Below, piece by piece: positions 4,343 through 16,477 of a DNA stretch of 32,904 bases. The notes under the pieces were generated by a model, which was given only the letters and a program-made list of their open reading frames with translations, was not told the DNA's origin and searched no databases. Location: positions 1 to 32,904 of the forward strand of contig JACQEG010000058.1 in the NCBI GenBank assembly GCA_016200665.1, read 5' to 3'. Position 1 is the stretch's first letter; each line of letters begins with the position of its first letter. This DNA comes from Chloroflexota bacterium (GTDB taxonomy: Bacteria; Chloroflexota; Limnocylindria; Limnocylindrales; CSP1-4). A program made the position numbers and the translations under genes.

Positions 4343-5092
4343 TCACGCGGCGCTTCCGGCAAGGCGCGGGGCGCGGCCCTCGCGCTCGGCGGCACCGGCG
4401 CTCTCGACGAGCGACCGGATGATCCCGAAGCCGTCGTCCGAGCCAAGCAGCGCCTCGACCGCGCACTCCGGGTGGGGCATCAGGCCGGCGACGTTGCCCG
4501 CGGCATTGATGACCCCGGCGATCGCCCGCAGGCTGCCGTTGGGATTGTCCGGGTCGCCCGCCTCGCCGGCCACCGAGCCGTCGTCATGGACGTATCGGAA
4601 CAGGACCTGGCCGTCGCGCTCCAGGGCGTCGAGCGTCACGTCGTCGGCGAAGTAGCAGCCTTCGCCGTGGGCGATCGGGACGCGCAGCGGCCGCCGCGGC
4701 CCGGCCAGCATCGTGAACGGCGTGTCGAACCGCTCGATGGCGATGTGGACGTCCCGGCCCAGGAACCGCAGGCCACGGTTGCGGAGCAGCGCGCCGGGCA
4801 CCAGGCCGGCCTCGGCGATGACCTGGAAGCCGTTGCAGATCCCGAGCACGAGCCCGTCCCGCTCGGCGAAGGCGCCGACCGCGCGCATGACCGGGCTGAA
4901 CCGGGCAATGACGCCGGCCCGAAGGTAGTCGCCGTAGGCGAAGCCGCCGGGGACGACGATCGCCGCCGATCCCTCGAGGCTCGCCGTCTCGTGCCACAGG
5001 GGCACGGCCTCGCCGCCCGCGAGCTCGATGGCCCGCAGCGTGTCCCGATCGCGATTGGATCCCGGGAAGATGACGACCCCGATCCGGGTCAC
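4343..5092 (-). CDS. purQ: Phosphoribosylformylglycinamidine synthase, glutaminase subunit PurQ
   Basis: PurQ is a class I glutamine amidotransferase that supplies ammonia to PurL for FGAM formation. The 249-aa product has the N-terminal [14 protein letters not shown] segment, the oxyanion [13 protein letters not shown] motif, the nucleophile elbow GICNGFQ (Cys86) and the catalytic His/Glu pair in MPHPE (His207, Glu209). The ATG at 5092 overlaps the purS stop by 4 bp (ATGA), and its own stop abuts the purL start. Length and motifs are normal. Confidence 0.96.
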
Positions 5093-5340
5093 GCGATGCG
5101 CTCCACGCCGTGGGCCTCGATGAGCGGGTTCGCGAGCAGCTCCGAGGCCAGCCGTTCGGCGATGGCCGCCGCGGCGCCCTCGTCCGGCGCCTCGACCGTG
5201 AGCTCGACCCGTCGCCCGACCCGGACCGCCGATACGCCGGCGATGCCGAGGTGCCCCAGGCTGCCCTCGACGGCCCGGCCCTGTGGATCGAGGATCCCGG
5301 GCTTCGGCAGGACGTTCACGGCGAACCGGAACTCGCTCAT
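5089..5340 (-). CDS. purS: Phosphoribosylformylglycinamidine synthase subunit PurS
   Basis: PurS is the small accessory subunit that bridges PurQ and PurL in FGAM synthase. The 83-aa product has the typical beginning FRFAVNVLPKPGILDPQGRAV and the VRVGRRVELTVEA strand. The ATG at 5340 gives the family's normal length. A second ATGAGCGAG, overlapping the purC stop at about 5357, is in a different frame and closes after six codons, so it is not the start. The gene sits 13 bp after purC and overlaps purQ by 4 bp. Confidence 0.93.
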   Translation of the reverse strand: MSEFRFAVNVLPKPGILDPQGRAVEGSLGHLGIAGVSAVRVGRRVELTVEAPDEGAAAAIAERLASELLANPLIEAHGVERIA

Positions 5341-5353
5341 GGCGCGACCTCGC

Positions 5354-6292
5354 TCATGCGATGACGTCCTCCCGGAGGTATCGATCGAAGCTGGCCTCGG
5401 TGATCCGCTCGAACGCCTCGACGTAGCGCGCCCGGGTGCCGGCGACGACGTCCGGTGGCAGCTCCGGGCCGGGCGCCGTCTTGTCCCACGGCTGGCCCTC
5501 GAGCCAGTCACGAACGAACTGCTTGTCGAAGCTCGGCTGCGGCCCGCCAGGGGCGTACGTCGCGGCATCCCAGAACCGCGACGAATCCGGCGTCAGGACC
5601 TCGTCGACGAGGATGAGCTCGCCGTCGGCGAGGCCCAGCTCGAACTTCGTGTCGGCCAGGACGATCCCGGCCCGCTCGCAACGCGTGGCCGCCGCGCGAT
5701 AGAGCGCCAGCGCGACCTCCCGGACCCGTTCCGCCAGGTCGCGCGGCGAGCCGACGTTGCCGTCGCGAACGGCGACGCCCTCGATCTCGGCGACCATCCG
5801 CCCGAAGTCGATGTTCTCGTCGTGGTGACCGGCCTCGGCCTTCGTCGCGGGCGTGAGGATCGGCTCCGGCAGGCGGTCGGCCTCCCGGAGGCCGGCCGGC
5901 AGTCGCACGCCGCAGATGGACCCGGTTGCGCCGTACTCCTTCCAGCCCGAGCCCGCGAGGTAGCCGCGGACCACGACCTCGATCGGGAGGACGGTGGCCC
6001 GGCGGCAGAGCAGCATCCGGCCTCGCAGGTCCGCGCCGACGTCGTCCGGGACCGCGCCGGCCGGGACGTCCGCCGGGTCGGTGCCGACGAGATGGTTCGG
6101 GATGATGCCGGCGGTGTGTCGGAACCAGAACCGCGAGAGACCGGTCAGGACCCGGCCCTTGTCGACGATCGGCGTCGGCAGCACGACGTCGAACGCGCTC
6201 AGCCGATCGGACGCGACGAGGAGCAGCCGATCGTTGCCGACCGCGTACAGGTCGCGCACCTTGCCGGATCGCAGGTACGTGGAGTCCGTCAT
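5354..6292 (-). CDS. purC: Phosphoribosylaminoimidazole-succinocarboxamide synthase (SAICAR synthetase)
   Basis: PurC ligates aspartate to CAIR with ATP to give SAICAR. The 312-aa protein is of the longer type (about 300 aa) rather than the short E. coli type. Visible motifs are SGKVRDLY near the N-terminus, [38 protein letters not shown] and [14 protein letters not shown]. The ATG at 6292 overlaps the purB stop as ATGA, so purC is translationally coupled to purB. Nothing unusual was seen in the coding sequence. Confidence 0.96.
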
Positions 6293-7638
6293 CGGGCGCC
6301 GCCCGCCGGCGCGGCGGTGGCCGGCCTGGTGCCGGCCGGCGCGAGCGCGTCCAGGCGGGCGATGACCTCGGCGACATGGGTCAGGTAGGCCCGATCGTCG
6401 AAGCAGGCGTCGAGGTCGGCCAGGCTGAGGCGCCGGGCCACGACGGGATCGACCGCCAGCAGCTCTCGCAGCGCCCGCCGCTCGTCCTGGGCCCGCAGCG
6501 ACGCCGCCTGGACGATCGCATAGGCCTCCTCCCGCGAGAGCCCCGCCCGCTCGACGAGCGCGAGCAGGACGCGCGAGGACGCATGCAGGCCCAGGCCTCG
6601 CTCGACGTTCTCCCGCATCCGGTCCTCGCGGACCACGAGGCCCTGCACGAGGCTCGTCGCCTTCTGGAGCAGGTAGTCGAGGAGGATCGTCGCGTCCGGC
6701 AGGATGATCCGCTCCGCCGAGGAGTGGCTGATGTCGCGCTCGTGCCAGAGCGGCTGGTTCTCCATCGCCGTGTGGGCGTAGCCGCGGAGCACGCGGGCGA
6801 GACCCGCGATCCGCTCCGACAGGATCGGATTGCGCTTGTGGGGCATCGCCGACGAGCCCTTCTGGCCGGCCTTGAACGGCTCCATGACCTCGGCGATCTC
6901 GGTGTGCTGGAGGTTCCGGACCTCGGTGGCGAGCCGCTCGAGCGTGCCGCCGAGGATCGCGATCGCGGCGATGAACGCCGCGTGCCGGTCGCGCTGGACG
7001 ATCTGGGTGCTCACCGGGTCGGCGTGGAGACCGAGCTGGGCGAGCACCTCGGCCTCGATGTCGGGACCGAGGTGGCTGTACGTCCCCACGGGGCCGGAGA
7101 GCTTGCCGGTGCCGACCTCGTCCGTCGCGATCGCCAGGCGTCGCCGGCCGCGATCGACCTCGAAGGCCCAGCCTGCCAGCTTGAGCCCGAAGGTCGTCGG
7201 CTCGGCATGGACCGAGTGGGTCCGACCCATCATCAACGTGGCAGCGTGCTCGCGCGCCCGTGCGACGAGCACCGTCGTCAGCCGCTCGGCGTCGCTCAGG
7301 AGCAGCTCGCCGGCCGCCTTGAGCTGCAGCGCGAGCGCCGTGTCGACGACATCAGAGGACGTCAGCCCGAGGTGGAGGTAGCGGCCCTCCGGGCCGATCG
7401 TCTCGGCGACCTGGCTCACGAACGCGATGACGTCGTGGTCGGTCGTGGCCTCGATCTCGGCGATCCGCTCGGGGTCGACCCGGGCTCGCGTCCGCATCGC
7501 CTCGAAGGCGTCCGGGGGCACCTGCCCGCGCGCCACCTGGGCCGCCGCGACGGCGAGCTCCACCCGCAGCATCTGCTCGAACCGCGCCTGGTCGGTCCAG
7601 AGCGCCCCCATCTCGGGCAGCGTGTAGCGCCGGATCAT
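6289..7638 (-). CDS. purB: Adenylosuccinate lyase
   Basis: PurB is a fumarase/aspartase-superfamily lyase acting twice in purine synthesis: SAICAR to AICAR, and adenylosuccinate to AMP. The ATG at 7638 begins [14 protein letters not shown] and overlaps the purD stop by 4 bp. Sequence in the same frame further upstream is the shadow of purD. The 449-aa product contains [27 protein letters not shown] and the superfamily signature [12 protein letters not shown] with the catalytic Ser loop. Its position between purD and purC puts both PurB substrates' synthesis in one transcript with purA. Confidence 0.96.
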
Positions 7639-8966
7639 CGGGCCGCTCCGACGAGGTGCGCCGGCTCCGGCAGCTCCGCGGCGATGTCGTGGCGGCGCTC
7701 GACGCCGTCCCACGAGATCGCATCGGCCGCGCGCTCCGCGGCCCTTCGTGCATCGGCGAGCGACGGACCGCGGCCGACGACCGCCAGGACCCGCCCGCCG
7801 TTCGTGCCGAATCCGCCAGCGGGCCGCTTCACGGTGCCGGCGTGGAAGACGAGCGCCCCCTGGCTCCGCGCGGCCTCGATGCCGTCGATCGGGTCGCCCC
7901 GGCGCGGATCGCCCGGGTAACCCCTGGCGGCGAGGACGATGCCGACGGCTGCCTCGCCGCTGGCCGCCACCGCTCGTCGCCCCATGGTCGCCAGGTCCCC
8001 GTGGGCGGCGGCGAAGAGCAGGCCCGCGAGGTCGCCGGCCACCCTGGGCAGGATGACCTGGGCCTCGGGATCGCCGAGCCGGACGTTGCACTCGAGGAGC
8101 CGCGGCCCGGCCGCGGTGAGCATCAGGCCGGCGTAGAGGAACCCTCGGAACGGCGTCCCGCGCCGCGCCATCTCGGCGAGGAGCGGCCGGTGAACGCTCT
8201 CGACGATCGCCTCCACGGCACGATCATCGAGGTCCGGCAGCGGGGAGTAGGCACCCATGCCGCCGGTGTTGGGTCCGAGGTCGCCATCGCACAGCCGTTT
8301 GTGGTCGCGGGCGGCGGGCAGGGCGACCGCATCGTCGCCGTCGCAGATCGCGATGACGCTCGCCTCGCGGCCCTCGAGCCGCTCCTCGACGACGAGCGCC
8401 GGCTGATCCGCGGATCGCCCGACGAGGAAGCTCGGCGCCAGCTCCAGGGCCTGCTCGAGCGACTCGCAGACGACGACGCCCTTGCCCGCGGCGAGGCCGT
8501 CGGCCTTGAGGACGGCGCGAAGGCCCTCAGCGTCCAGCTCCCGGATCCAGCCGAGCGCGGCCCCGGCCTCGCCGCCCGCGAAGGCGCGGGAGCGAGCCAT
8601 CGGAACGCCCGCCGCCTCGGCGACCGCGTGGCAGAACGCCTTCGAGGTCTCGAGCCGGGCCGCGGCGCGCGACGGCCCGAAGACCGCGACCCCGGCTCCC
8701 TCGAGTGCGTCGGCAACGCCCGCTGCGAGCGGGGCCTCCGGACCGACGACGACGAGATCCGCGCCGCTGGCGAGTGCCGCCGCGACGACCGAGGCCGGGT
8801 CCAGGAGCTCGACCTCCCGCAGCACCCGGACCCCCGGCTCGTCGCCGATCCCACCGCTACCCGGCGCGACGACCACCTCGTCGACGCCCGCCTCCGCGGC
8901 GAGCTTCCAGGCGATGGCGTGCTCGCGGCCGCCGCCGCCGAGCACGAGGACCCGGCCGGAAGCCAT
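7635..8966 (-). CDS. purD: Phosphoribosylamine--glycine ligase (GAR synthetase)
   Basis: PurD is an ATP-grasp enzyme joining glycine to phosphoribosylamine. The ATG at 8966 was chosen because it gives the canonical beginning ASGRVLVLGGGGREHA; thirteen upstream in-frame codons lie inside purA. Other motifs are KADGLAAGKGVVV in the ATP-grasp domain and LECNVRLGDPEAQVILPR near the metal site. The product is 443 aa, normal for the family. The start shares one base with the purA stop (TGATG), and the stop overlaps purB by 4 bp. Confidence 0.95.
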   Translation of the reverse strand: MASGRVLVLGGGGREHAIAWKLAAEAGVDEVVVAPGSGGIGDEPGVRVLREVELLDPASVVAAALASGADLVVVGPEAPLAAGVADALEGAGVAVFGPSRAAARLETSKAFCHAVAEAAGVPMARSRAFAGGEAGAALGWIRELDAEGLRAVLKADGLAAGKGVVVCESLEQALELAPSFLVGRSADQPALVVEERLEGREASVIAICDGDDAVALPAARDHKRLCDGDLGPNTGGMGAYSPLPDLDDRAVEAIVESVHRPLLAEMARRGTPFRGFLYAGLMLTAAGPRLLECNVRLGDPEAQVILPRVAGDLAGLLFAAAHGDLATMGRRAVAASGEAAVGIVLAARGYPGDPRRGDPIDGIEAARSQGALVFHAGTVKRPAGGFGTNGGRVLAVVGRGPSLADARRAAERAADAISWDGVERRHDIAAELPEPAHLVGAAR

Positions 8967-10273
8967 CACACGGCCACGGGCGGCCGGTGGCGCATCGGGC
9001 GCCACGCCCGCTCGATCGTCTGCGAGCGCTCCGGCCCGACGGACACGAGCACGATCGGCACGCCGGCGTGCTCCTCGAGGGCGCTCAGGTAGCGCCGCGC
9101 GTTCTCTGGCAGGTCGTTGAGCGCCCTGACCTCATGAATCGGCTCGCTCCAGCCCGGGAACGTCTCGTAGATCGGCCTCGCCCGCCCCAGCATCGACCCG
9201 GACGACGGCCAGTGGTCGACGCGCTTCCCGTCCACCTCGTAGGCCACGCCGAGCTTGATCTCGGGGATCCCGGACAGGATGTCGATCTTGTTCAGCATGA
9301 TGCTGCTGACCGAGTTCACGGCGACCGCGTAGCGCAGCGGCACCGCGTCGAACCAGCCGACCCGGCGCGGCCGCCCGGTGGTGGTCCCGACCTCGTGGCC
9401 ACGCGAGGCGATCCCCTGCCCCACCTCGTCCGTGAGCTCCGTCGGGAATGGCCCCGAGCCGACCCGCGTCGCGTACGCCTTCATGACGCCCATGACCTCG
9501 TCGATCTGGAGCGGCCCGATGCCGCCTCCGGTCGCCGCCCCGCCCGCGACCGGGTTCGAGGAGGTCACGAACGGGTAGCTCCCGTGGTCGAGGTCGAGCA
9601 GCGTGCCCTGCGCACCTTCCAGGAGCACATGCTCGCCGGCCGCGAGGGCGCGCTGGACGAGCCACGTCGCGTCGTCGAGATAGCCCGCCAGCCGCTCGCC
9701 CCAGGCGACCGCCTGGTCGACCAGCGCCCGGACCTCGAACGTCTCGGCACCGAGCGAGGCGAGGATGAGGTTCTTGTCCGGCAGGACGCGCTCGATCCGG
9801 GCCTCGAGCACGGACCGGTCGAGGAGGTCCTCCATCCGCAGCCCGATCCGGTACGCCCGATCGGCGTAGGCAGGCCCGATCCCCCGCCCCGTCGTCCCGA
9901 CCTTCTCGCCCGCCAGGCGGGCCTCGTTGGCCCTGTCGAGCGCGACGTGATACGGCATGAGGACATGGGCACTGCGGCTCACCCGCACCCGCGAGACGTC
10001 GATGCCGCGGCTCGTGAGCATGTCGAGCTCGGCGATGAGGGTCGCCGGGTTCACGACCACGCCATTGCCGATGACCGAGGTGATGTGGGGATAGAGCACG
10101 CCCGACGGCACGAGATGGAGCTTGAACACCTGGTCGCCCCACACGACCGTGTGCCCGGCGTTGTCGCCGCCCTGATAGCGCACGACCATCCCGACCTGCT
10201 CGGCCAGGAAGTCGGTCGTCTTGCCCTTGCCCTCGTCGCCCCACTGCAGCCCGACGATGACGGTCGCCGGCAT
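8966..10273 (-). CDS. purA: Adenylosuccinate synthetase
   Basis: PurA converts IMP and aspartate to adenylosuccinate with GTP, the first step of the AMP branch. The ATG at 10273 gives MPATVIVGLQWGDEGKGK, with the family's N-terminal P-loop and catalytic Asp/His context. NAGHTVV, GTTGRGIGPAYADR and GVGKPF-like C-terminal elements (TTTGRPRRVGWFD, NKIDIL) are present in order. The 435-aa length is normal. It is the first gene of the pur operon, preceded by a structured leader with an intrinsic terminator. No strong Shine-Dalgarno sequence was seen before the ATG. Confidence 0.95.
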   Translation of the reverse strand: MPATVIVGLQWGDEGKGKTTDFLAEQVGMVVRYQGGDNAGHTVVWGDQVFKLHLVPSGVLYPHITSVIGNGVVVNPATLIAELDMLTSRGIDVSRVRVSRSAHVLMPYHVALDRANEARLAGEKVGTTGRGIGPAYADRAYRIGLRMEDLLDRSVLEARIERVLPDKNLILASLGAETFEVRALVDQAVAWGERLAGYLDDATWLVQRALAAGEHVLLEGAQGTLLDLDHGSYPFVTSSNPVAGGAATGGGIGPLQIDEVMGVMKAYATRVGSGPFPTELTDEVGQGIASRGHEVGTTTGRPRRVGWFDAVPLRYAVAVNSVSSIMLNKIDILSGIPEIKLGVAYEVDGKRVDHWPSSGSMLGRARPIYETFPGWSEPIHEVRALNDLPENARRYLSALEEHAGVPIVLVSVGPERSQTIERAWRPMRHRPPVAV

Positions 10274-10337
10274 CAGGCCACGCTCGCGATCGCGATCGCG
10301 GCCGCGGTCGCGCAGGACCCGCGCGCGGCGCCACGGA

Positions 10338-10373
10338 GAAAGAAAAAGGCCCGGGCCGGGTAGCTCGGGACCT
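10338..10373 (-). terminator. Intrinsic terminator / attenuator in the purA leader
   Basis: Read on the minus strand, AGGTCC at 10373-10368 can pair with GGGCCT at 10352-10347 (one G-U pair) around a 15-nt loop. It is followed at once by a T-rich run (TTTTTCTTTCT) ending near 10338. A competing pairing of an upstream GGGA with the TCCC that overlaps the 5' arm could act as antiterminator. Its position upstream of purA, not after a gene, points to attenuation. Confidence 0.55.
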
Positions 10374-10393
10374 GGATAGTTCTCTCCCGTCGG

Positions 10394-10428
10394 GACCGGC
10401 CGCCGAAGCGGCTGGGGTTCTGCCGGTC
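10394..10428 (-). promoter_or_regulatory. Stem-loop with UUCG tetraloop in the purA leader
   Basis: On the minus strand GACCG (10428-10424) pairs with CGGTC (10398-10394). Above it an 11-nt one-sided bulge (GCAGAACCCCA) leads to a perfect GCCGC-TTCG-GCGGC hairpin. Such a stem, asymmetric bulge and tetraloop is the kind of shape seen in ligand- or protein-binding leaders, but I cannot match it to a named riboswitch class. Confidence 0.45.
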
Positions 10429-10524
10429 GCTCGCCCGCCTCACGGGACGGACGACGCGCCCCTCTCGCGCGATCGCAGGACCTCCTGTCGGGGCCGCCTC
10501 GACGTGCGGCCCGGGCACCGCCGG

Positions 10525-10530
10525 AGTATA
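10525..10530 (-). promoter_or_regulatory. -10 box (TATACT) of the pur operon promoter
   Basis: TATACT on the minus strand matches the sigma-70 -10 consensus at 5 of 6 positions in an otherwise GC-rich stretch. No good -35 hexamer is visible 16-18 bp upstream. The expected start of transcription is near 10518, giving a leader of about 245 nt before purA. Confidence 0.5.
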
Positions 10531-10574
10531 GCGGCCTCGACGGACCGCTCTGCTGCCCTTCTTCGGAAGCTCGG

Positions 10575-11138
10575 CTAGCCCTCGTCCCCGGGCCAGCGTT
10601 CCGCGAAGACGGTCTCGCTTCGAGGCAGCCGGCCCTGGCCGGGCGGGCTCTTCGGGGCAAGCGCGGCCTCGGTCGGGTGCCCGACGACGACGATCGTCCT
10701 GACGTAGCGATCCGCCGGCAGCCCGAGGAGGCCCGAGACGAGCGCCCGGACGTCCCTCCGGATCCACGCGATTCCGCCACGAAGGCCGACGAGCTCCGCG
10801 GCGATGAGGAGCCGTTCGGCGGCACGGCCCTCGTCGTAGGCCCGCGAGATGGCCTGGTCGTCGTCCGGCAGGACGATGGCCACGGCTGCCGGCGCGGTCT
10901 TCAGGCCGCGGGTCTGGGGCAGCCCGCCGTCGTGGATTCGCTGGAGCGTGGCGCGGTCCCGGATGACGATGAACCGCCACGGCTGGGTGTTCGTGCTGCT
11001 GCCGGTCCAGCGCGCGGCATCGGCGATCGCGTCCAGCTCGGCGTCGGTCGGCGCCTCGTCCGTGAACTCGCGGATCTGGCGGACCCGGATCAGCGGTCGC
11101 ACGGCGTCCCGCGGAGATGACGACTCGCGCGCGGTCAT
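10575..11138 (-). CDS. Nitroreductase family protein (FMN-dependent)
   Basis: This is a 187-aa member of the nitroreductase superfamily, FMN enzymes that reduce nitro compounds, quinones or flavins with NAD(P)H. The N-terminal FMN-contact motif RQIREFTDEAP and the downstream SSTNTQPWRFIVI segment are clear, followed by the C-terminal GHPTEA motif near the dimer interface. ATG 11138 was chosen because it gives the normal family length; the 53 upstream in-frame codons are Arg/Pro-rich and unlike the family. It is followed by the pur leader and is divergent from ssb. The natural substrate cannot be told from sequence. Confidence 0.85.
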   Translation of the reverse strand: MTARESSSPRDAVRPLIRVRQIREFTDEAPTDAELDAIADAARWTGSSTNTQPWRFIVIRDRATLQRIHDGGLPQTRGLKTAPAAVAIVLPDDDQAISRAYDEGRAAERLLIAAELVGLRGGIAWIRRDVRALVSGLLGLPADRYVRTIVVVGHPTEAALAPKSPPGQGRLPRSETVFAERWPGDEG

Positions 11139-14743: not shown

Positions 14744-16477
14744 ATGACCTTGTTCACCGCGCGATCGTCCCGGTTCGCGACCCTCGTCGCGGCCATGGCG
14801 ATCGTCGTCGGCGCGTGTTCGTCGCCGGCGAGCAACACCCCATCCTCACCGGCCGAGTCCGGCGGGGCCGGCACGCCGGCTCCGAGCACGTCGTCCTACG
14901 CCGCGGAGGCCTACCCGGCCGACGCCGATGCGCCCTGCGACGATGCCACGAAGAACTCGTCCGAGTTCAAGCGCATCAAGGCCGTCGACGAGTTCACGGT
15001 CGAGTTCGACCTGTGCGCGCCCGACGTGGCCTTCCTGTCCAAGATCGCGTTCGCCTCGAACGCCATCCAGGACTCGGATTGGCTGAAGGCCCACATGGCC
15101 GACAAGTCGATCCTGCGCAATGAGAACGGCACCGGCCCCTACACGCTGAAGAGCTGGGACGCCGGCAACCGCATGGACATGACGGCCTTCGCCGGCTACT
15201 GGGGCAACCAGGCGCGCACCCCGAACCTGGAGTTCCAGTGGAGCGACCAGGCAGTCAGCCGGACCCAGGCGCTCGTCGCCGGGACGGTCGACGGCATCGA
15301 CAACCCCGGTGCCGAGGACATCAAGACGATCCAGGGCCACGAGGACCTCAAGTTCAACCAGCGCGAGGGCCTCAGCACCCTGTACGTCGGGATGAACGTC
15401 CTCAAGGCCCCGTGGACCGACGAGAACGTCCGCAAGGCGATCGCCATGTCGATCGACCGACAGTCGCTCGTCGATCACTTCTATCCCCCGGGCTCCAGCG
15501 CCGCCGACTACTTCACCCCGTGCGCCATCCCGTTCGGGTGCGTCGGTGACAAGTGGTACGACTACGACCCGGCCGCGGCAAAGGCCCTCCTGACCCAGGC
15601 CGGCTTCCCGAATGGCTTCACGACGACCCTGTCGTTCCGTGCGGCCGTCCGTGGCTATCTCCCGGATCCGCCGGCCATCGCGACCGCGATCGCTGCGGAC
15701 CTCAAGAAGAACCTGGGCATCACCGCGACCCTGGACCTCCAGGAGTCGGGTGCGTTCCTCAGCAACGCCGCGAACGGCTCGATCGACGGCCTCTACCTCC
15801 TCGGTTGGGGCGCCGACTTCCCGGACGTGACGAACTTCCTCGACTACCACTTCGGCAGCGGCTCGGGTGCCAAGTTCGGCAAGCCGTTCGACGACATCGT
15901 GGCTGCCCTCAAGACGGGTGGCTCGTCGGCGTCGGACGCTGATCGGACCGCGGCGTACACGACCGCCAACAACGCCATCAAGGCTCACGTCCCGATGGCC
16001 CTGGTCGCCCACGGCGGCTCGGGTGATGCGTTCAAGGCCGACGTCGTCGGCTCGTACGCCTCGCCCATCGGCAGCGAGCTCTTCTACGTGATGTCGGCCG
16101 GCACTCGCGACACGCTGGTCTGGATGCAGAACGCCGAACCACTCAGCCTCTATTGCGGCGACGAGTCGGACGGCGAGACGCTCCGCGCCTGCGAGCAGAT
16201 GTTCGAGTCGCTCTACACGTACGAGATCGGTGGCACGAAGGCCATTCCGGCGCTCGCGACGGACTGCGCCCCCAATGCCGACCTGACCGTGTGGACCTGC
16301 CACCTCCGCCAGGGGGTCAAGTTCCATCAGTCCGGCACGCTCGATGCCAACGACGTCGTCGACAGCCTGGCGCTGCAGTGGGATACGAAGAACCCGCTGC
16401 ACGTCGGGAACACCGGCGACTTCGAGTACTTCCCCGGCCTGTTCGGCGGGAATCTCAACCCACCGCCGGCCTCGTGA
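14744..16477 (+). CDS. Dpp/Opp family substrate-binding lipoprotein with circularly permuted domain order
   Basis: This is a 577-aa SBP_bac_5-family lipoprotein that would capture peptides or similar ligands for the downstream importer. A signal peptide ends at a lipobox (VVGAC, Cys25), followed by a Ser/Pro/Ala linker. Residues 73-450 match the region that normally follows the first roughly 110 mature residues: KAVDEFTVEFDL, NGTGPYTLKSWDAG, YVGMNVLKAPWTDENVRKAI, DYDPAAAKALLTQAGFPNG and LLGWGADFPD. Residues 455-577 then match the usual N-terminal segment: DTLVWMQNAEP, LRACEQMFESLYTYE, WTCHLRQGVKFHQ, LDANDVVDSLALQWD and EYFPGLFGG. The order is therefore permuted, with the break in the loop after EYFPGLFGG. 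The second binding protein in this window has the ordinary order. Eight cysteines lie in the mature chain beyond Cys25. The start has a strong ribosome binding site. Confidence 0.88.
   Translation: MTLFTARSSRFATLVAAMAIVVGACSSPASNTPSSPAESGGAGTPAPSTSSYAAEAYPADADAPCDDATKNSSEFKRIKAVDEFTVEFDLCAPDVAFLSKIAFASNAIQDSDWLKAHMADKSILRNENGTGPYTLKSWDAGNRMDMTAFAGYWGNQARTPNLEFQWSDQAVSRTQALVAGTVDGIDNPGAEDIKTIQGHEDLKFNQREGLSTLYVGMNVLKAPWTDENVRKAIAMSIDRQSLVDHFYPPGSSAADYFTPCAIPFGCVGDKWYDYDPAAAKALLTQAGFPNGFTTTLSFRAAVRGYLPDPPAIATAIAADLKKNLGITATLDLQESGAFLSNAANGSIDGLYLLGWGADFPDVTNFLDYHFGSGSGAKFGKPFDDIVAALKTGGSSASDADRTAAYTTANNAIKAHVPMALVAHGGSGDAFKADVVGSYASPIGSELFYVMSAGTRDTLVWMQNAEPLSLYCGDESDGETLRACEQMFESLYTYEIGGTKAIPALATDCAPNADLTVWTCHLRQGVKFHQSGTLDANDVVDSLALQWDTKNPLHVGNTGDFEYFPGLFGGNLNPPPAS

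Follow-up and report, generated by a model that had tools for sequence, protein, structure and literature searches.

The pyrBI operon of Escherichia coli has a U-rich pause tract. The operon's terminator sits inside a leader gene of 135 bp and escapes repression when UTP is at normal levels, and pausing sites couple the ribosome to RNA polymerase, according to the sections of the source available to us (PMC4824070). In a related account, of which an excerpt was available, termination at a pyr leader hairpin is inhibited by the advancing ribosome (PMC5021804). Among the matches listed in open PubMed Central, as judged from titles and the openings of abstracts, none described a translated attenuator before purA.

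Here we describe a leader that precedes purA and the pur operon in an uncultured Chloroflexota lineage. The DNA analysed, referred to below as the window, is a stretch of 32,904 nucleotides (contig JACQEG010000058.1). Comparison of this leader with those of relatives reveals a reading frame (frame Y) that is kept open, ends at the start of purA and has a terminator within it, together with a hairpin that presents the motif RUGA. From these sequence features we infer that frame Y is translated, that transcription terminates at the terminator hairpin and that the two are linked in a regulatory logic; on balance, we regard it as fairly probable that the leader is a translation-dependent transcription attenuator. 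The features of the window on which this reading draws, all on the minus strand, are as follows.

10525-10530, minus: TATACT, the -10-like box of the presumed leader promoter, seen in the sequence.
10481-10485, minus: GGAGG, the Shine-Dalgarno sequence of the leader frame, unchanged throughout an alignment of 17 leaders from the window's clade (GGAG is also a condition of the anchoring rule given below).
10471-10473, minus: AUC, where the leader frame most probably starts in the window's clade, judged from its being in frame in 17/17 leaders.
10273-10473, minus: leader frame Y by translation, 66 codons and a UGA (10275-10273) that overlaps the purA AUG.
10440-10443, minus: GUGA, the stop of a short first ORF overlapping the frame-Y GUG, and the putative restart point in clades with UUG (GTGA in 67 and ATGA in 8 of 75 leaders).
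10432-10453, minus: hairpin P2 (CGUCCG / CGGGCG) with GUGA within its 10-nt loop, identified by covariation among 55 distinct leaders.
10380-10390, minus: purine-rich tract ACGGGAGAGAA directly 5' of the terminator, a possible RNA polymerase pause region (GGG in 68/75 leaders).
About 10341-10373, minus: predicted intrinsic terminator inside frame Y, with tail UUUUUCUUU, from a folding scan (-14.0 kcal/mol).
8966-10273, minus: purA, the first gene of the pur operon, found in the window with its AUG at 10273-10271.

Read from AUC 10473, frame Y of the window translates as IAREGRVVRPVRRASDRQNPSRFGGRSRRERTIQVPSYPARAFFFLRGAARGSCATAAAIAIASVA. An earlier note on this DNA had held that no open frame fills the leader, a claim at odds with these 66 codons that run from AUC 10473 to the UGA at the purA AUG and whose openness is conserved. 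The TATACT box that it named is indeed present at 10530-10525, and 58/75 relatives have a TATACT-like box no more than 90 nt 5' of their leader GGAG, but a strict sigma-70 scan of positions 10200-10700 returned no promoter. The ORF upstream of the leader, which ends at 10575, is one that we take to be nitroreductase-like. Elsewhere in the window, a family 5 solute-binding protein (14744-16477, plus strand) has its halves swapped relative to the dipeptide-binding protein 5f1q_A: residues 456-571 match the N-terminal part of 5f1q_A (29-151) and residues 78-454 match 155-536. This arrangement reflects a circular permutation or else a fault in the assembly.

A blastn search (60 relatives, E < 1e-6) found the leader in 18 loci beyond the window (L009-L023 and L025-L027); L024, whose match is a GC-rich repeat-like stretch near the purA start only, was set aside. 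purA lies 3' of the leader on the same strand in 18/18 of these loci, and the upstream nitroreductase is present in 0/18, flanks of at most 1,500 nt having been searched. The conserved block spans the -10 box to the U-tract. Across family f1, purA was found in 96 of 107 genomes (26 of 27 genera), and its 96 upstream stretches, less three duplicates, gave 93 distinct sequences. These were screened by an anchoring rule (GGAG, then ATTG, GTTG or ATCG, then an in-frame stop after 6-12 codons) that 75 of the 93 pass and 18 fail; the leaders are kin, so counts across them are not independent. Leaders are still recognisable in seven unanchored upstreams (L021, L027, L098, L100, L115, L120 and L133), and none is recognisable in L066 and L074. 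L118 is incomplete, and L081, L088, L103, L116, L125, L126 and L140 were assigned to neither group. At L114 (genome G078, contig C72) about 360 nt separate the leader from purA (the model matches 5200-5359 and purA begins at about 5717), and an insertion may thus have occurred between them.

Searches with a covariance model of the leader (R1) delimit its spread. Among 400 genomes of the phylum, 30 f1 genomes match, 29 of them scoring at least 80 bits and one (G030) 32 bits, and three f1 genomes have no match. Two additional weak matches (25-28 bits) occur in f1 genomes G031 and G106. Twelve genomes of other families score 24-29 bits, matches that we take as chance; the weak match in G060, of the same class, sits off the contig that carries purA. 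Among 80 purA loci from a protein search, one matches R1 at E up to 1 (L188), with a leader sequence that is that of L065 and hence not an independent case. R1 also scores 119 bits on JAJYKX010000096.1 (Chloroflexi bacterium DBS2-1.bin55), a sequence that has both ORFs and a leader identical to that of L065, which puts f1 within Chloroflexota. By eye, such a leader is absent from 20/20 purA upstreams in four non-f1 families of the class (12, 4, 3 and 1).

purD follows purA in 29 of 30 f1 loci, the exception having purB; purB follows purA in two loci of the sister family; and three further families, with five loci between them, have no purD, B, C, S, L or F in the roughly 2.5 kb after purA. The leader thus accompanies a purA that heads a pur operon. 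A terminator-bearing leader upstream of purA is real, conserved and purA-linked across f1. This much supports the earlier note in so far as it saw an attenuator-like leader before the pur operon; the ligand- or protein-binding aptamer that it envisaged is unsupported.

Frame Y is the frame opened by the RUG of RUGA, and its openness is no part of the anchoring rule. It has a stop before purA in 0/75 leaders, compared with 27/75 and 20/75 for the other two frames, and in 0 of 18 genera, compared with 11 and 8. In 55/75 leaders frame Y ends within -12 to +2 of the purA start (0 and 3 for the other frames), so that stop and start overlap or abut, the hallmark of a translationally coupled pair; in the remaining 20/75 its end falls 13 nt into purA, where the purA sequence itself carries a stop in that register. 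Counted by genus, the majority of leaders end at the purA start in 14/18 for frame Y and in none for either of the other frames. Pairwise gaps are divisible by three in 225 of 285 comparisons within five clades (67/75 leaders, the other 8 belonging to no clade set; pairs are not independent), and in 12 of 24 within the g2 set. purA lacks a Shine-Dalgarno sequence of its own in 12/18 leaders of the AUC clade vs 7/57 others, as expected if coupling feeds purA there.

Two arrangements of the start can be distinguished. Behind GGAG, the 75 anchored leaders have UUG (57) or UCG (18), with an in-frame stop 6-12 codons on, and this first-ORF stop always lies within RUGA (GUGA in 67, AUGA in 8). Since the anchoring rule itself demands an in-frame stop, we recounted without that requirement, and UUG is in frame with RUGA in 58/59. 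In the UUG clades, which are most clades, a first ORF of about 10 codons (e.g. LPEEGAASVP) terminates in RUGA, and frame Y can restart at the RUG. In L067, L095 and L135 a stop closes frame Y between UUG and GUG, as a GUG start would allow.

In the window's clade UCG replaces UUG, so that the first ORF cannot start there. One base before the UCG is an AUC, 7 nt behind GGAGG in the window, that is in frame Y in 17/17 leaders of the clade (L112, differently built, was set apart from this count). Upstream of it no ATG, GTG or TTG is common to the 17 leaders; the in-frame GUG at 10518 is the window's alone. In four leaders without the GUG (L021, which has GUU; L098, which has GCG; L115; and L120), frame Y stays open from AUC as far as a stop that overlaps purA, and L027, L100 and L133 have their AUC in register with the RUGA stop. 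In-frame conservation, the lack of a shared upstream start and the openness of GUG-less leaders make AUC 10473 the likeliest start of frame Y in this clade. AUC is a rare start codon. Precedent comes from infC of Streptomyces, which starts with ATC according to the part of the source available (PMC5472188).

Two hairpins accompany these frames. In P2, RUGA is held in the loop of a stem that varies in sequence (CGUCCG/CGGACG, GUUCG/CGAAC, AUCGG/CCGAU and CUCGGU/ACCGAG are examples) and reaches at least 5 bp in 61/75 leaders vs 27% of shuffles. Among the 67 GUGA leaders (55 distinct; the eight AUGA leaders were excluded), P2 pairs in 81.8% of cells, with a covariation of 0.395 vs 0.187 for shuffles and no more than 0.154 when slid. 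The earlier note had looked to covariation among relatives as a check on the leader, and it is found here, in a hairpin that the note did not describe. The second hairpin is the predicted U-tailed terminator, which the same note had also picked out: a hairpin with a T-rich tail is found by folding scan in 62/75 leaders vs 14/225 shuffles (at about 10373-10341 in the window, where a strict scanner reports none), and 13/75 lack one under the criteria used. Its tail starts 82-105 nt after RUGA, whereas the distance to purA varies between 20 and 194 nt. Pairing holds in 89.3% of terminator cells, with slight covariation (0.179 vs 0.150), and GGG stands directly 5' of it in 68/75 leaders. A family-wide RNAalifold consensus contains only nine pairs, all in P2 and the terminator, and the window's leader, taken in full, is no more stably folded than its shuffles (z -0.43). 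A stem with an 11-nt bulge and a UUCG cap, proposed earlier, can be drawn in the window (10428-10394), yet a UUCG-capped hairpin of 5 bp occurs in this region in 1/75 leaders, the window's own, and is not conserved.

The pairing potential of P2 lends itself to a different account, in which a ribosome arrested at the end of the first ORF of about 10 codons, mostly at Pro-UGA, would cover the P2 loop and free the G-rich tract to pair with the 5' arm of the terminator, giving readthrough. The last first-ORF codon is Pro in 66/75 leaders, the P2 loop can pair with the G-rich tract over at least 5 bp in 57/75 (vs 32% of shuffles) and the tract with the terminator arm in 46/75 (vs 35%), margins over the shuffles that are modest. 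We consider arrest unlikely, however: UCG in place of UUG prevents the first ORF from starting in the window's clade, and L021 and L098 have lost its stop altogether.

P2 might instead belong to an RNA that binds a ligand or protein, as a riboswitch or PyrR-type attenuator, with the frames incidental. Its covariation would suit such a role, and its loop fits the PyrR box, whose consensus we took to be UCCNGNGAGG, in 26/75 leaders including the window's. pyrR is present in the window's genome, with 32/41 genomes exceeding the family cut-off, and PyrR-like boxes precede pyrR and probable carA. Against this, RF00515 exceeds its cut-off in 0/41 genomes, the strict loop is missing in 49/75 leaders, consensus pairs are nearly nil beyond P2 and the terminator, and frame Y is left unexplained, all of which make a binding RNA quite unlikely. 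A PyrR site at the conserved GUCCCGUGAGGC was rejected as a general explanation, given that UGA alone among its bases is common to the clades and the strict loop is confined to that minority. Several of the variable bases of the P2 loop in GUGA leaders fall on third positions of frame Y, so that stop and start codons explain the loop better than a PyrR box does.

The Rfam searches agree, as far as they go, with the earlier note's statement that no known riboswitch is recognisable. The scan of the window against Rfam 15 gave nothing at gathering score, and the best sub-threshold match to the leader itself reaches 14.3 bits vs a cut-off of 50. Eleven relatives' loci yielded only two SAM riboswitches, which lie outside the purA leader, upstream of it and on the other strand (L025:891-1006 and L188:1111-1226, both minus). 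Several PyrR-like boxes below the Rfam cut-off were also observed. One lies directly before pyrR in the window's genome (L046, minus strand near 2088) and overlaps a Shine-Dalgarno-like GGGAGGAG; others precede probable carA in relatives, in tandem at L031 (1503 and 1525) and L032 (1505 and 1527), and at L028 (minus, near 1165). An RNA gene such as 6S RNA, considered for the pairing potential between the ends of the window's leader, was rejected: Rfam gave nothing, and the leader stays with purA.

If frame Y is translated, its product appears to matter little. In frame Y (other two frames in brackets) the fraction of changes that are synonymous is 0.179 (0.122, 0.216), 0.302 (0.211, 0.288), 0.197 (0.151, 0.204) and 0.143 (0.164, 0.222) in four clades, which hold 59/75 leaders, the other 16 being in none. 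There is no clear excess in frame Y, which ranks highest in one of the four and then narrowly, so the case for coding is built on the open frame, its register and the place where it ends. Clade g3 gives a local hint of coding, in that one Pro codon is kept in 19/19 leaders with all four third bases used. It is very unlikely that frame Y is a functional small protein co-expressed with PurA and the hairpin an ordinary or useless terminator: the open frame and the g3 Pro codon would suit a conserved small protein, but the synonymous-change comparison weakens the idea, the window's frame-Y product has no Pfam match, peptides differ between clades, and a U-tailed hairpin is retained inside the frame in 62/75 leaders. 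A frame that is kept while its peptide is hardly constrained suggests that the act of translation in cis, rather than the product, is probably what matters.

Translation-dependent attenuation would proceed as follows. RNA polymerase would start near 10520 and transcribe the leader, and the leader Shine-Dalgarno sequence and start would load ribosomes into frame Y, either at AUC 10473, as in the window's clade, or at UUG with a restart at GUG or AUG. A ribosome following closely would cover the 5' arm of the terminator and let transcription enter the pur operon; it would then finish frame Y at the overlapping stop and start, and restart on purA. With translation late or absent, the terminator would form. 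The leader's style of coupling carries on down the pur operon, given the four-base overlaps of purD/purB, purB/purC and purS/purQ (7635-7638, 6289-6292 and 5089-5092).

As for the signal, our favoured candidates are a purine-NTP-sensitive pause in the G-rich tract and discrimination by IF3 against the AUC start. Pausing is the more attractive by analogy with UTP and pyrBI. In such a purine counterpart of pyrBI, low purine NTPs would cause a pause at the G-rich tract, the ribosome would catch up, and the terminator would be suppressed as the ribosome moves onto purA, with gating by AUC and IF3 in the window's clade; we offer this fuller scheme as a possibility, and a doubtful one. If the attenuator reading is true, an uncultured lineage controls its whole purine pathway by coupling translation to transcription, with neither riboswitch nor repressor; the logic of pyrBI is extended to purines, with a conserved use of an AUC start added; and supposedly untranslated leaders can be frames that start at codons ignored by gene finders.

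Set beside the known classes of leader, this one departs from the trp/his/ilv type in that a run of codons for a single amino acid is, by eye, absent from the ORF X and Y peptides, and in that frame Y ends at or after the far side of the terminator rather than before it; the one ORF that finishes ahead of the terminator is the short first ORF in the UUG clades. It recalls ilvB-II of Corynebacterium, where a conserved element before a biosynthetic operon, at first regarded as an RNA motif, proved to be an upstream ORF with attenuation, but the peptide there is enriched in the sensed amino acids, with no such enrichment apparent here, and the frame here crosses the terminator to reach the gene (as far as the available part of PMC10272879 describes that system). 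The P2 loop resembles the PyrR box of the PyrR attenuator (RF00515) in about a third of leaders, but GAGG is not kept family-wide, no match exceeds the cut-off, and the genes downstream are purine genes. With the IF3-discriminated starts of infC and of sigR of Streptomyces (excerpt of PMC5472188) the leader shares a non-canonical start behind a strong Shine-Dalgarno sequence, although the start here is a predicted one and belongs to a leader frame rather than to a gene product.

The closest likeness in layout is to pyrBI, from which this leader nonetheless differs in several ways. Here the genes are those of purine synthesis, and most leaders have the stop overlapping or adjoining the first gene; there is a second short ORF with an RUGA overlap in most clades, and an AUC start in the window's clade; and a purine tract replaces the U-rich pause tract. 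As far as known, the two leaders are not homologous. A frame that reads through an intrinsic terminator, the mark of the pyrBI type, is found computationally, open in 75/75 leaders with the terminator inside it in 62/75. As in the pyrL leader, to judge from the available sections of both sources, the frame holds its terminator about 100 nt in, before a nucleotide-synthesis operon, and the proximity of a ribosome would be expected to suppress it (PMC4824070, PMC5021804).
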